Shown: one piece after another, positions 1,707-18,237 of the stretch
How positions within the stretch are numbered: the first letter of the stretch is position 1
Layout: the number at the start of each line of letters is the position of its first letter
Origin: a virus
Length of the DNA stretch: 28,365 nt
Virus record (IMG/VR): IMGVR_UViG_3300037264_000184
Coordinates: 1 to 28,365 of that record
Strand: one strand, 5' to 3'
Notes under the pieces: model-generated
The model's database searches: none
Seen by the model: only the letters and a program-made list of their open reading frames with translations
Told to the model about the DNA's origin: nothing
Position numbers and translations under genes: made by a program

Positions 1707-1768
1707 CTGTACGCTTATACAGGCCATGCGCCCCTGGTCTTAAATCGTTAGACGCGCGCGCGAACTGC

Positions 1769-1974: not shown

Positions 1975-1990
1975 CTGTATAAACATACAG
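1975..1990. promoter_or_regulatory. LexA-type box 1
   Basis: CTGTATAAACATACAG is a perfect CTGT-N8-ACAG site, the conserved frame of the LexA (SOS) operator of Gamma- and Betaproteobacteria. With its flanks it matches 15 of 20 positions of the E. coli consensus. Confidence 0.7.
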
Positions 1991-2005
1991 GTCAAGCTGA
2001 GCTGA

Positions 2006-2021
2006 CTGTATTAACTTACAG
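2006..2021. promoter_or_regulatory. LexA-type box 2
   Basis: CTGTATTAACTTACAG, again CTGT-N8-ACAG with an AT-rich centre, continuing into GTA as in the extended consensus. It starts 31 bases after box 1 and covers the -35 element CTTACA (2015-2020) of the possible rightward promoter. Confidence 0.7.
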
Positions 2022-2043
2022 TAGAACCCGACTACTGTATAAT
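2015..2043 (+). promoter_or_regulatory. Possible rightward promoter overlapped by LexA boxes 2 and 3
   Basis: TATAAT at 2038-2043 with CTTACA at 2015-2020 and an exact 17-base spacer. The -35 lies in box 2 and the -10 in box 3, so LexA binding would occlude it. No gene starts within 450 bases downstream, so the product is either a non-coding transcript or a long leader into the gene at 2531. Confidence 0.45.
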
Positions 2044-2050
2044 CATACAG
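2035..2050. promoter_or_regulatory. LexA-type box 3
   Basis: CTGTATAATCATACAG, a third CTGT-N8-ACAG palindrome starting 29 bases after box 2. Preceded by TA, it reads TACTGTATAA as in the consensus. It contains a TATAAT -10 hexamer (2038-2043). The near-regular spacing of about three helical turns places all three boxes on one DNA face. Confidence 0.7.
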
Positions 2051-2261
2051 CTCCCTGAGATCACAGCTTATTCTCTGAAACCAACCTACTCGATTTCTTT
2101 TCACCTACTTAGAGGGGGGGAGGGGGAAAATCTCCCTCGCCTCAAACCGTCGTAACCCCCTTTCCGACGGGTTAAATAACTTTCCTAACTAGTCCCTATT
2201 AAGTATATGGCACCTATTTACCCTCTCCCTCACCTCAAGAGAGGCTCTAGGGGCCTCCTGA

Positions 2262-2406: not shown

Positions 2407-2435
2407 ATTATACCATAAAAGGTTTAAAAAGTCAA
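2407..2435 (-). promoter_or_regulatory. Leftward sigma70 promoter (divergent partner)
   Basis: On the minus strand TTGACT (2435-2430), a 17-base spacer and TATAAT (2412-2407) make a near-perfect promoter. It shares TTGACTTTTT and GGTATAATA with the rightward promoter at 2463-2490, and the two -35 elements are back to back with 27 bases between them. Transcription would start near 2400 and run through the hairpin and LexA-box region toward the leftward genes. Confidence 0.75.
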
Positions 2436-2462: not shown

Positions 2463-2490
2463 TTGACTTTTTCTAAAAATGTGGTATAAT
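2463..2490 (+). promoter_or_regulatory. Rightward sigma70 promoter of the virion operon
   Basis: TTGACT (2463-2468), a 16-base spacer and TATAAT (2485-2490). The start would be near 2497, 34 bases before the GTG of the first rightward gene, with AAGGA as its ribosome-binding site. It is the only strong promoter seen upstream of the packed plus-strand genes. Confidence 0.8.
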
Positions 2491-3716: not shown

Positions 3717-4007
3717 ATGCCATACATGAAGGATGGAAAACGTGATTATCGTCGAGAATACGATAAATATCATGGCCGTCCAGAGCAAATCAAGAATCGA
3801 GATGCTCGCAACAAAGCCCATTCTGACCTCGAAAAAAAGACTGGTCGAGATATTACGGGGGATGTTGATCATGTTAAACCATTATCTCAGGGGGGTTCCA
3901 ACTCCCCTTCTAATTTAAGAGTCACGTCAAAGGGCGAGAATCGTTCCTTTAAACGGGACTCCAAAAGTAAAATGACTTCCCAACAATCCAGACGGGAAAA
4001 GAAGTGA
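3717..4007 (+). CDS. HNH-family nuclease, 96 aa
   Basis: Small basic protein with a betabeta-alpha-metal core: DVDHVKPLSQGG (Asp51-His52), SPSNLRVTS (Asn66) and GENRSFKR (Asn75). This gives an HNN-type arrangement, and no zinc-binding Cys pairs are present. Such HNH proteins next to terminase genes are common in tailed phages, where several are needed with TerL for genome-end cleavage or packaging; that role here is inferred from position. The start is uncertain: neither ATG at 3717 nor ATG three codons later has a visible ribosome-binding site, so translation may be coupled to the preceding gene. It ends directly before the GTG of terL. Confidence 0.85.
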   Translation: MPYMKDGKRDYRREYDKYHGRPEQIKNRDARNKAHSDLEKKTGRDITGDVDHVKPLSQGGSNSPSNLRVTSKGENRSFKRDSKSKMTSQQSRREKK

Positions 4008-5543
4008 GTGCAAAAACTACTTAATGAGCATGTTATCCAAGGCTTTGTGGGAAGTATCCTTGCCAAACGTTTTGATGGCTCTGTCCCTAGCCCTAATTGT
4101 CACCGCGAGTGGTGGGAGCTTTGTACTTCTAACCACAAGTTTGTGGCTATTGCAGCACCCCGAGGATTTGCTAAAAGTACAGCTATTACTTTCAGTTATA
4201 CTCTTGCTTGCGTATTGTTTAGGGAGCGTCGCTTTGTCGTTATCATCTCTGATACCGAAGCCCAGGCAGCCGGTTTCTTAACCTTAATTAAACAAGAACT
4301 CACTGAGAACGAGGAGTTAATCCAACTCTTCCGTATTAAACGAGACGTTAAGCAACGAGTAGTATTTAATAAAGAGACTGAGACTGATCTTGTGGTTTCA
4401 TTCTCAGATGGTGAGAAGTTTAGAATTATAGCTAAAGGTTCTGAGCAGAAACTTCGGGGCCTTCTCTGGAATGGCCTCCGTCCTGATCTCATCGTCTGCG
4501 ATGACATGGAAAACGACGAGATTGTAATGAACAAGGAACGTCGGGAGAAGTTTAAGCGGTGGTTTTATGGTGCCCTAATGCCGTGCCGCTCCAAAGAGGG
4601 TGTAATCCGCTACGTAGGCACAATTCTTCACATGGACTCTATGTTGGAGAATCTGATGCCAGAAGGCTCGGATAAAAAGTCAATCCAGGAAGATCTTAAG
4701 TTATATACTACTAAGCGTTTTGGCGATCACGGATGGAAGTCTGTAAAATATAGAGCTTGCTCAGACGACTATGAAAGCTTACTTTGGCCCGAACGGCATA
4801 CTGCCGACTCTCTTAAGGCCAGTCGTGATGATTATCGACAAAGAGGCTTATCAGATGTGTGGGCTCAAGAGTATCTTAACATTCCCATTGACGAGTCTAC
4901 CTCCTACTTCAAAAAAGCTGACTTCCTGCCTTTAAGAGAAGAAGACTTAAAGTTAATACTTAACTATTATATTACGGTTGATTTAGCCATATCCTCGGAA
5001 CAGAAAGCTGACTTTACCTGTTTCCTTATCGCAGGGGTAGACGAGAACAAACGGATTCATATAAAGAATATAATTAAAGAACGTGGTTTGGATGGACGTG
5101 AGATTGTTGATACACTTATCGCCCTCTCCCGAGCCTACAAACCCGTTGCTGTCGGAATAGAGGAATCTCAGATTTCGCAATCCATTGGTCCTTTCTTAAA
5201 TGAAGCCATGATTGCTTCAAACGAATTCCTCACCCTTTACCCAATGAAGCATATGGGAAAGGACAAAGTAACTAGATGTCGCTCCATTCAAGCCAGGATG
5301 CGCGCCAAGACGATAAAGTTCGATGACCAAGGGGAGTGGTACCAACCGTTTGTAGACGAGTGCTTACGCTTTCCTAGAGACAAACACGACGATCAAGTAG
5401 ATGCCTTCTCTTATCTTGGTCTTATGTTAGATAAGTTAATTGAGGCCCCTACCCCTAAAGAGGTAGAAGAGCAGGATTACATTGAGGAGTATCAACGTAG
5501 TGGATTATTCGAATTCGGACGAAATGGAACTACCGGCTACTGA
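4008..5543 (+). CDS. terL: Terminase large subunit, 511 aa
   Basis: The ATP-driven DNA-packaging motor and nuclease that fills the capsid through the portal. The ATPase domain has a Walker A variant APRGFAKST (residues 50-58), a Walker B DLIVCDD (160-166) followed by MEND, and a coupling motif VGTILH (203-208). The C-terminal RNase H-like nuclease has Asp325 in ITVDLAIS, GIEES (383-387) and the metal-binding cluster KHDDQVDAFSY (459-469). All key residues are present and the length is normal. GTG at 4008 follows immediately after the HNH stop; a purine stretch GGGAAAAGAAG serves as a modest ribosome-binding site. The last codons overlap the portal gene. Its neighbours, TerS, HNH and portal, make up the packaging module. 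Confidence 0.95.
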   Translation: MQKLLNEHVIQGFVGSILAKRFDGSVPSPNCHREWWELCTSNHKFVAIAAPRGFAKSTAITFSYTLACVLFRERRFVVIISDTEAQAAGFLTLIKQELTENEELIQLFRIKRDVKQRVVFNKETETDLVVSFSDGEKFRIIAKGSEQKLRGLLWNGLRPDLIVCDDMENDEIVMNKERREKFKRWFYGALMPCRSKEGVIRYVGTILHMDSMLENLMPEGSDKKSIQEDLKLYTTKRFGDHGWKSVKYRACSDDYESLLWPERHTADSLKASRDDYRQRGLSDVWAQEYLNIPIDESTSYFKKADFLPLREEDLKLILNYYITVDLAISSEQKADFTCFLIAGVDENKRIHIKNIIKERGLDGREIVDTLIALSRAYKPVAVGIEESQISQSIGPFLNEAMIASNEFLTLYPMKHMGKDKVTRCRSIQARMRAKTIKFDDQGEWYQPFVDECLRFPRDKHDDQVDAFSYLGLMLDKLIEAPTPKEVEEQDYIEEYQRSGLFEFGRNGTTGY

Positions 5544-7557
5544 GCAGGCCGCCCCCCAAGGGGCTCGGGCCTTTATTGAGCAGGTTAACATCGCCGAACA
5601 TCTCAAGGAAGCAAAGCTTCTGGAGATTGCCGAGGAAGTTCATTCTGGGTATAAGACAGATCTTCAATCCCGAGAACAATGGGAAAAGAACCTAGATGAA
5701 TGGACTAAACTAGCTCTCCAGTTTAAAGAAGAAAAATCCTACCCCTGGCCTAAAGCCTCCAATATCAAGTATCCCCTCCTTTCTACTGCTTCTCTTCAGT
5801 TTAATGCTCGTGCGTATCCAACACTTATTCCGCCGCAAGGCAATGTTGTAAGGGTCGAGATTATCGGCTCAGATCCGCAAGGGCTTAAAGCAGAGCGGGC
5901 AGATCGGGTGTCTAAATTTATGTCTTATCAACTCATGAAGCAGATGCTCAATTGGGACTCTGATATGGATAAGGCACTTCTGATTCTCCCCATTGTGGGG
6001 ACCCTATTCAAGAAAACTTACTGGGATTCCCAAAAGAAGCAAAACTGCTCTACCCTTATTATGCCCAAGGACCTAGTAATTAATTACTGGGCCAGATCGT
6101 TGGAAACTTGTGAACGTAAAACTGAAGTTATTGAGATGCCCAAACGGGTGCTTAAGGAACGACAGAACGCCGGGATCTTCTTAAATATTGATCTTCCCTC
6201 CCCAACCTCTCAAGGCACAGAAGCGAACCCCAATCTTCAAAAGACCCAGCCGGGTAAAGACGATCGTACTACTCCTTATATTATCCTGGAACAGCATACA
6301 TTCCTGGATCTAGATAATGATGGTTACGACGAGCCTTATATTATTACCTTAGAAGAAGCCTCTAAGAAGGTTCTTCGTATCTGTGCTCGTTTTGATGAAG
6401 AAGGAATTTCAACTAATGAAAAAGGTGACATCACTAAGATTGACCCAATTGAGTATTACACCAAGTATACGTTTATTCCTAATCCTGATGGTGGGTTCTA
6501 TGATGTCGGATTTGGTCTTTTACTTGGCCCAATCAATGATTCCGTTAACACTCTAGTTAATCAACTAGTCGATTCAGGCACTTTAAGTAATCTCCAGGCT
6601 GGATTTATTGGTAAAGGTCTTCGCATGAAAATGGGAGACGCCATGTTTAAACCTGGAGAATGGAAACCAGTTAATGCTACTGGCGATGATATTAAAAAAC
6701 AGATTTTTCCCCTTCCTGTCAATCAACCTTCTAAAGTTCTCTTTGAATTACTCGGTATGCTCGTACAGGCGGTTAAAGAACTTGCTTCTGTTCCTGAGAT
6801 CTTTGTGGGTAAGATGCCAGGTCAAAATACCCCTGCCACTACGACAATGGCTACAATTGAGCAAGGACAGAAAGTCTTTACTGCCGTATATAAACGAGTG
6901 TGGCGTTCCCTTCAAAGTGAATTCAAGAAACTTTATCGTTTAAATCGGATTTATATTAATCCACAAGAAATTGTTAATATCTTAGATCAGCCGGTTACTC
7001 CGGAGGATTTTGACGAATCCAAGTATGATATCTGCCCAGCAGCAGATCCTGCTGCAACCTCTTCCCAAGAAAAAATGGCTAAAGCTCAAGCACTTATTGA
7101 GTTACTGCAACTTGGTACTGTAGATCCAGCGGCTGTAACCATGCGAATCTTGCAAGCTCAAGAGCAGCCGAAGATTGAAGAGTTACTCCCCAAAGGACCT
7201 CCTCCTCCTGATCCCAAAGTCGTGGCCGAACAACAGAAGGCTCAGACAGCTCAAATGATGGCCCAGCAAAAGATGCAATTGGAGCAACAAAAGGCTGAGC
7301 TTAAGATGCGTGAATCTGCTGTTCAAATGCAGATGGAACAACAAATGCAGGCCATGGAACTCCAGCACAAGCAAGCTATTACTCAACTTGAATTACGTGT
7401 AAAGATGATGGAAGCTAATGTTAAAACAGCCGCCACTATACAACAAGCACAAGTTGATAAGCAAGTCGCCGATCAAGATATGAGAGTATCCCAAGCTCAA
7501 CACGAGCAAAAGATGAAGCAAGCTAAAGAAGTTAAACCTAAGAAGGAGAATAAGTGA
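5524..7557 (+). CDS. Portal protein, P22 type, about 677 aa
   Basis: Forms the dodecameric ring through which DNA enters and leaves the head. The N-terminal part holds the portal signature SYPWPKASNIKYPLL (about residues 72-86) and QFNARAYPTLIP, with the core following (LLLGPINDSVNTLVNQLVD and FVGKMPGQNTPATTTMA). From about residue 557 there is a poly-proline hinge (GPPPPDPK), then over 100 residues of Gln/Met/Lys-rich coiled coil, similar to the C-terminal barrel of long portals. The start is uncertain: ATG at 5524 is used; GTG at 5500 with GAGGAG 10 bases upstream or TTG at 5482 would add 8 or 14 residues. It overlaps terL by 20 bases. The last four bases overlap the next gene. Confidence 0.9.
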   Translation: MELPATEQAAPQGARAFIEQVNIAEHLKEAKLLEIAEEVHSGYKTDLQSREQWEKNLDEWTKLALQFKEEKSYPWPKASNIKYPLLSTASLQFNARAYPTLIPPQGNVVRVEIIGSDPQGLKAERADRVSKFMSYQLMKQMLNWDSDMDKALLILPIVGTLFKKTYWDSQKKQNCSTLIMPKDLVINYWARSLETCERKTEVIEMPKRVLKERQNAGIFLNIDLPSPTSQGTEANPNLQKTQPGKDDRTTPYIILEQHTFLDLDNDGYDEPYIITLEEASKKVLRICARFDEEGISTNEKGDITKIDPIEYYTKYTFIPNPDGGFYDVGFGLLLGPINDSVNTLVNQLVDSGTLSNLQAGFIGKGLRMKMGDAMFKPGEWKPVNATGDDIKKQIFPLPVNQPSKVLFELLGMLVQAVKELASVPEIFVGKMPGQNTPATTTMATIEQGQKVFTAVYKRVWRSLQSEFKKLYRLNRIYINPQEIVNILDQPVTPEDFDESKYDICPAADPAATSSQEKMAKAQALIELLQLGTVDPAAVTMRILQAQEQPKIEELLPKGPPPPDPKVVAEQQKAQTAQMMAQQKMQLEQQKAELKMRESAVQMQMEQQMQAMELQHKQAITQLELRVKMMEANVKTAATIQQAQVDKQVADQDMRVSQAQHEQKMKQAKEVKPKKENK

Positions 7558-17238: not shown

Positions 17239-18237
17239 ATGGCACATACAATCTTTACTAATGGAGTTACTCTTACTGAAGCAGCATGGTTCAATGATAT
17301 TGACACAGTTGCTTATACTTATTTTGGTGACTTAACAAATCTTAATACCCCAACCAAAGTAGCAGTAACTATTGGGGCCTTCTCAACTTCAGTTCTGACA
17401 CCACTAATAGATAGTCAAACTAATCCTCTTAATCTTCGAGGTACTTCAACAGTTGTAAGTTGGGCTACGACTACATCGGTTACTAGAGGAGAAGGTCGTA
17501 AGCCTATCGTGGCTAACGGATTTCATTATGAGGTAACAGATGTCTCCCTGACAACTTCGACTTGGGTGACCTTAACACTTTATTCGACGGGGACTTTTGC
17601 TAAGCCTACGGCACCCAATACCTTTAGGTATGAGGCAACTACAGGTGGAACAAGTGACGCAGGTGAGCCTACTTGGCCTACAATCAGAGGCCGTACAGTT
17701 ACAGATGGCACAGTAATCTGGACTTGTCGGGATACTGCTCTTACGGGTGGGTCTGAACCGATTTTCCCAACAACGCCAGGAACTACAGTTGATGATGTTG
17801 CTATTCGTTGGACTTGCCGTACCCCTGGAGTTGGGAATCTTAAGACCTTTATTGGAGAAGGCATAGGCTACCAAGTTGGGGCTAACACCGGAAATTTCAA
17901 TGGTGAGTACCAAATTAATAGTCTTGGAAGTGCACCTCTCAGTATTCTTTCGTTTGCCGATGATGGGATCAAGCATAGTCAAATCACTGGATCTTTATCC
18001 AGTGGTTTTCAATCATATGCCTCAAAACATACTTTTTATAGTTTTTCCGATGGTACTGCCCAATTTGCAATTACAAATACGGCAAATGCTCTATTTCATA
18101 TTACAGTCACAGGTTCTCTTACAAACCCTGTTCTGAGTACAACAGGTGGAAGTCTCTCGATTGATGTACCTGTACTTATTCAAGGATCACCTCCAGATAC
18201 TGGACGATTTGTTAAACAATTTTATCCCTCTTTCTAA
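17239..18237 (+). CDS. Second tail fibre-like protein, 332 aa
   Basis: ATG at 17239, weak ribosome-binding site. The opening MAHTIFTNGVTLTEAAWFND, then IDTVAYTYF, is another common adaptor found at the N-terminus of phage fibres. Residues 110-195 hold two tandem units of the type G-TS-AGEPTWPT--G-TV-DGT-IW-CR (RYEATTGGTSDAGEPTWPTI and SEPIFPTTPGTTVDDVAIRW), a repeat I know from phage tail proteins. The C-terminal part is a beta-rich, Ser/Thr-rich head with FYSFSDGTAQFAITNTANAL and ends RFVKQFYPSF. Together with the preceding fibre it suggests two receptor-binding components. Confidence 0.8.
   Translation: MAHTIFTNGVTLTEAAWFNDIDTVAYTYFGDLTNLNTPTKVAVTIGAFSTSVLTPLIDSQTNPLNLRGTSTVVSWATTTSVTRGEGRKPIVANGFHYEVTDVSLTTSTWVTLTLYSTGTFAKPTAPNTFRYEATTGGTSDAGEPTWPTIRGRTVTDGTVIWTCRDTALTGGSEPIFPTTPGTTVDDVAIRWTCRTPGVGNLKTFIGEGIGYQVGANTGNFNGEYQINSLGSAPLSILSFADDGIKHSQITGSLSSGFQSYASKHTFYSFSDGTAQFAITNTANALFHITVTGSLTNPVLSTTGGSLSIDVPVLIQGSPPDTGRFVKQFYPSF

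Follow-up and report, generated by a model that had tools for sequence, protein, structure and literature searches.

LexA, the repressor of the SOS response, is known to control phage genes as well as the genes of its own host. SOS-inducible prophages, such as P2-like phages (Tum) and Gifsy, are integrating phages that carry LexA-controlled antirepressors. On plasmids, LexA boxes gate the lethal and release genes of colicin operons (PMC6182141). In GIL01, a tectivirus of Bacillus thuringiensis, the LexA of the host binds at tandem boxes in the late promoter (PMC6182141), and it is LexA, acting on promoters P1 and P3, and not a dedicated repressor, that holds the lytic genes (PMC6182141, PMC4551915). 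GIL01 also needs two proteins of its own, gp6, a truncated LexA that activates the late genes, and gp7, a cofactor that strengthens the binding of LexA (PMC6182141, PMC4551915).

The DNA analysed here (the window) is an entire IMG/VR record, a linear fragment of 28,365 bases from a tailed phage. Its putative LexA boxes, some of them in tandem, resemble those of GIL01 (tandem at P3); virus family, host and type of LexA box are different. As candidates for an arrangement like that at the late promoter of GIL01, the tandem boxes of the window adjoin the terminase operon, but 480 bp separate them, and the promoter-like site that they cover (2015-2043), from its first ORF, and its strongest promoter-like site is not among the sequences covered. 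The boxes are of the same type as those of the E. coli lexA and recN promoters, each of which has two boxes 21-22 bp apart upstream of it in MG1655, but lexA and recN are genes of cellular repair whose two strong boxes stand closer together, and the window has four boxes in the control region of a phage. Colicin operons encode plasmid toxins, in contrast to the phage packaging genes found here. The window would share with the Tum and Gifsy prophages the use, proposed here, of host LexA as a damage sensor of the phage; unlike them, it has no integrase or repressor that we could see, and its boxes adjoin a terminase operon and not an antirepressor. Control of phage genes by host LexA is already known, for instance in GIL01; what is added here is the recurrence of LexA-type boxes beside the terminase operons of unrelated phages with no detectable integrase or repressor.

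Judging from the sequence, we consider it probable (about 0.6) that the four boxes are operators of the host LexA and give a divergent early/late control region a response to SOS. The DNA itself shows the boxes, their LexA-like form and their position next to the terminase operon, and it shows that such boxes recur at the terS promoter of other lineages. An earlier, sequence-only reading had taken the boxes for operators of LexA type in the control region of a phage. Their fit to an E. coli matrix speaks for it, as does the finding of LexA-type boxes at the corresponding position in phages that are not related, and the interpretation as a whole is partly supported.

Three CTGT-N8-ACAG boxes start exactly where that reading had placed them, at 1975, 2006 and 2035, with start spacings of 31 and 29 bases. 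They had been called perfect palindromes, which holds for the four-base arms of all three; beyond these the symmetry varies, with arms of six bases each in boxes 1 and 3 and of five in box 2. A further perfect box (box 4) had been overlooked; a leftward ORF starts 52 bp downstream of it. The window thus holds four perfect boxes against 0.26 expected, a number reached in none of 100 shuffled sequences, and all four fall inside a stretch of 344 bp that is for the most part non-coding. By a rough Poisson estimate, a group of three such sites in 76 bp would be expected about 6e-8 times per window. A chance origin of the four boxes is ruled out. When one mismatch is allowed, 10 sites are found against 9.4 expected, so that the signal depends on the perfect boxes at one place.

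We scored the boxes with a 20-bp matrix built on 20 E. coli LexA sites, those of lexA and recN having been verified in the MG1655 record. The four scores (Table 1) compare with a span of 12.9-24.6 among the E. coli sites themselves. Only one further site in the window scores (15.7, at 17985), and it lies within a coding ORF. The core of the LexA operator of gamma- and betaproteobacterial type, CTGT-N8-ACAG, is present in four perfect copies, and the scores on the E. coli matrix extend the agreement to the 20-bp consensus, although a strict search of the window for the full 20-bp consensus TACTGTATATATATACAGTA with at most three mismatches returned no site.

Table 1. Coordinates of the features discussed in the text (positions in the window unless another record is named).
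Feature	Position	Strand	Sequence or evidence
Leftward ORF, 220 aa	770..1432	-	No family match; positioned like the first leftward gene of QDWS535
First leftward ORF, 51 aa	1500..1655	-	No family match
LexA-type box 4	1707..1722	.	CTGTACGCTTATACAG; perfect CTGT-N8-ACAG; LexA matrix score 13.1
Possible leftward promoter, TTAAGA-18-TATAAG	1743-1738 (TTAAGA), 1719-1714 (TATAAG)	-	By eye; weak; box 4 covers the -10
LexA-type box 1	1975..1990	.	CTGTATAAACATACAG; exact pattern match; LexA matrix score 21.4
LexA-type box 2	2006..2021	.	CTGTATTAACTTACAG; matrix score 18.8; includes CTTACA, the -35 element of the site at 2015..2043
Promoter-like CTTACA-17-TATAAT	2015..2043	+	Consensus match only; under boxes 2 and 3; points to the terminase operon
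LexA-type box 3	2035..2050	.	CTGTATAATCATACAG; matrix score 22.5; includes TATAAT, the -10 element of the site at 2015..2043
G-tract	2111..2130	+	AGAGGGGGGGAGGGGGAAAA; in the same region in related and several unrelated phages
Strong promoter-like TTGACT-17-TATAAT	2407..2435	-	Consensus match, TG before the -10; leftward early operon
Strong promoter-like TTGACT-16-TATAAT	2463..2490	+	Consensus match; terminase/structural operon; no box overlap
First rightward ORF, 103 aa	2531..2842	+	Signal-peptide-like N terminus
ORF in small-terminase position, 140 aa	2941..3363	+	60% identical homologue in L021
HNH endonuclease	3717..4007	+	phrog_4590 2.4e-16; PF13395 8e-5
Terminase large subunit (TerL)	4008..5543	+	phrog_38 1e-81
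Portal protein	5524..7557	+	phrog_1216 6e-32
Mini-LexA of clade B (examples)	L037:8429-8656; L026:6265-6492; L174:4579-5001		

The rightward genes of the window encode an HNH endonuclease, TerL, a portal and a head-closure protein, and the leftward ones are small and have no assigned family. We found no close DNA relatives of the window in the phage collection and no relatives of its 220-aa leftward protein. The nearest isolates by TerL are Alcaligenes phage vB_Af_QDWS535 (56% over 76%) and MW202796 (48%), phages of about 44-50 kb with replication genes leftward and structural genes rightward. By this layout, the boxes of the window lie in the divergent control region between early and structural genes.

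The rightward CTTACA-17-TATAAT that had been noticed over boxes 2 and 3 is present and matches the consensus at 10 of 12 positions. The leftward transcript that had been drawn from 2400 likewise has a candidate promoter behind it (2435 to 2407), and such a transcript would traverse the G-tract, boxes 3 to 1 and box 4. By eye, comparable leftward sites occur in two relatives (L021 and L061) and comparable rightward sites to that at 2463-2490 in L021 and L060. The first 6 kb contain 10 promoter-like sites against 9.6 by chance, and the promoters of the window are therefore suggestive only. Neither of the two strongest promoter-like sites, leftward at 2435-2407 and rightward at 2463-2490, is covered by a box, which is the main weakness of the LexA reading; the 480 bp between the box-covered promoter and the rightward genes also count against it.

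We infer the binding of LexA, the promoter that it governs, the type of host LexA and the direction of the effect, as follows. The LexA concerned would be of the gamma/betaproteobacterial type, which reads CTGT-N8-ACAG. Dimers on boxes 2 and 3 would cover the -35 and -10 of the promoter at 2015-2043 and most likely shut it, and the whole triplet, together with box 4, would also impede leftward transcription toward the early operon. Upon damage to the host DNA, or when replication of the phage triggers SOS, RecA would make LexA cleave itself and the block would be lifted.

Loss of the palindromes in close relatives with the same gene order had been named as a refutation of this explanation. The three boxes are indeed absent from L021 (TerL 69%), the nearest of the relatives that share the gene order, and from the rest of the terminase family (L005-L024), across which boxes are not conserved: in the 12 relatives whose upstream DNA is long enough there is no comparable cluster, a single weak site (score 12.9) being all that was found in them, and the control regions of QDWS535 and MW202796 contain neither a tandem nor a high-scoring box. 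This absence from the family and from the closest isolates counts against the LexA reading and, taken alone, would argue for a feature private to one phage. It does not refute it, because LexA boxes are also gained and lost among close relatives where their placement is systematic. The control region of QDWS535 (L061) carries three widely spaced copies of another palindrome, TCCTAATATTAGGA, at 1630, 1856 and 2093, and other members of the family may use other regulators there. In L021 a long run of CCTTGA/CCCTGA/CCATGA hexamer repeats (304-536) separates two leftward genes.

Systematic placement was seen in clade B, the TerL relatives of L037. LexA-type sites scoring at least 11 within 3 kb lie upstream of terL in 33 of 57 cases and downstream in only 4 of 67. 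The start of terS could be read in 54 phages, and in 25 of them the 180 bp upstream of it contain a site with a score of 16 or more, against a mean of 0.06 and a maximum of 1 in shuffled sequences, with the centre of the box mostly 49-90 bp from the start codon. In 17 of these 25, the 20-mer is separated by 2-5 bp from an extended -10 (TGnTAnnnT) downstream, which puts the box on the -35 region of a promoter that reads into terS. Some sites are identical to known cellular boxes; one of them, TACTGTATATAAAAACAGTA, is the umuDC box, letter for letter. In clade A, the TerL relatives of L034, only about 9 of 62 members have a strong box in their equivalent of this divergent region, which counts against the LexA reading, as does the different geometry of clade B, where the -10 lies just after the box and not, as in the window, inside box 3. 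In L034 itself (640-801), the unit of an exact 35-bp repeat contains another palindrome, ACTAAGACTTAGT, besides the LexA-type box, so that the three boxes and this palindrome take turns along the array, which two regulators may share.

When 2.9 million viral contigs were scanned blindly for pairs of CTGTAT-N5-TACAG boxes lying 9-20 bp apart, 26 contigs were returned, compared with none in the reversed-sequence control. They come from several unrelated lineages. The fetched flanks of 20 of the 26 include terL, and the best matches of these TerL proteins fall in PHROGs 2, 38, 5902 and 979; of the other six, several end close to the boxes or have adjoining primase-helicase genes. Among 30 distinct sites, the CTG and CAG ends are nearly invariant, and both the flanking bases (TA...TA) and the positions that drift agree with the LexA consensus. 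Three perfect boxes in a row had been thought unusual, and so they are, with 14 viral contigs and 23 matches in 84,980 species genomes; the titles of these 23 records are mostly of other phyla, several of them Nannocystis, and none names a gamma- or betaproteobacterium. Helical phasing was discarded as general evidence of cooperativity, the spacings elsewhere ranging from 16 to 36 bp with no conservation of the exact phase.

Searches of the window and of 18 further records, related or box-bearing, gave neither an integrase (PF00589) nor an S24 peptidase (PF00717), and an AAA_31 ParA-type gene was likewise missing from the window and from the related and box-bearing records checked, so the idea of a phage-plasmid was dropped. 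A dedicated phage repressor was thus not found in the records searched; as several of these are fragments, the missing genes are supportive and not conclusive. Much of the early region of the phage lies outside the 28-kb fragment and could encode a regulator of LexA-like specificity, either a repressor or a late activator in the manner of gp6, whose operators the boxes would then be. That GIL01 gp6 activates late genes favours this explanation, and so does clade B, in which a LexA DNA-binding domain of 73-80 aa without the S24 peptidase is encoded between terS and terL in 75 of 80 loci (profile built here; PF01726 above cut-off in several records). This mini-LexA is comparable in kind to gp6 and might be a late-gene regulator; the 28 kb of the window encode no truncated LexA. 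However, its recognition helix reads KGRGNVHR in place of the RSPNAAEE of E. coli LexA, and N41, E44 and E45, the residues with which LexA contacts bases, are replaced. Phages devoid of boxes (e.g. L196) also encode it, it was not found in most other box-bearing lineages, and it is absent from the window, which makes it an improbable binder of the boxes. Moreover, PF01726 and PF00717 have no match in the window, QDWS535 or MW202796, nor PF01726 in the terminase-family records, and the drift of the boxes tracks the cellular LexA consensus. We therefore regard a phage-encoded regulator as an unlikely owner of the boxes. A PF01726 match in G007 (15 bits) was below the cut-off and belongs to a different HTH-like protein.

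The boxes adjoin terS and terL in unrelated phages, as would also be expected if, together with the G-tract, they were iterons of a replication origin or a pac/cos packaging signal, bound by an initiator or by the small terminase. The recurrence of the G-tract in this region (directly after the boxes in L048) and the exact 35- and 33-bp repeats that enclose the boxes of L034 and L036 are in keeping with such a function. Nevertheless, most members of clades A and B possess at most one box, that of clade B has a fixed promoter geometry, many relatives have the G-tract without boxes, and one LexA-like motif accompanies different terminases, which should recognise different sites; we find this explanation quite improbable. 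That geometry also makes it very unlikely that the boxes are a decoy, titrating the host LexA in multicopy and switching on the SOS regulon with no phage promoter controlled, for titration does not need a single box placed exactly on a promoter, even if four boxes multiplied by many genome copies could, as a matter of arithmetic only, come near the number of LexA dimers, and even if the two strong promoters of the window have no box over them. Finally, the palindromes could act in RNA, for example as a leader hairpin in the leftward transcript, or have no DNA-binding function at all. Both strands fold better than shuffled sequences (z of -3.8 and -3.6), but any repeated palindromes are expected to do so, there is no T-run and no match to an Rfam family, and the boxes retain LexA-specific sequence beyond mere pairing; with chance palindromes excluded by the counts given above, we hold this extremely unlikely.

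Operators of the host LexA, the reading that we prefer for the window, may also have a wider meaning. We suggest tentatively, at less than an even chance, that several lineages of tailed phages, unrelated to one another, mostly aquatic and without an integrase, have put operators of the host LexA at the promoter or in the control region of terS-terL and use SOS as a timer or gate of their late genes, possibly triggered by their own replication, the window with its three boxes plus one being the most elaborate case. No description of LexA control of terS was found in the open-access literature. If this were true, the state of damage of the host DNA would decide when, or whether, phages with neither integrase nor repressor make virions, SOS control would extend to phages that are usually assumed to be purely lytic, and carrier or dormant states of aquatic phages would have a simple basis. 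As about half of the 54 clade B relatives share the box and the way in which it is set on the promoter, the idea is more than a single curiosity.

Other repeated elements accompany these regions. The G-tract, GAGGGGG(A/T)GGGGG followed by TAGGGCC, AAAA or TACAAA, lies upstream of or within the terS-terL region of unrelated phages: at 2111-2130 in the window, at 619 in L006, 62 in L014, 2788 in L021, 2461 in L022, 2610 in L048, 48242 in L059 and 18347 in L060, and in most clade A loci. A role as packaging signal, origin or terminus would be a guess. The hexamer GTTAAC, mostly paired at 10-11 bp (GTTAACAGNNGTTAAC, minus strand), occurs near the starts of leftward genes (217-232, 518-533, 1447 and 1672-1706), with 9 of the 13 copies of the window in its first 1.7 kb, and may mark another regulatory site. 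The 220-aa leftward ORF is followed, at 719-748, by a strong hairpin of 12 pairs and then TTTTTTT, which resembles a terminator for leftward transcription.
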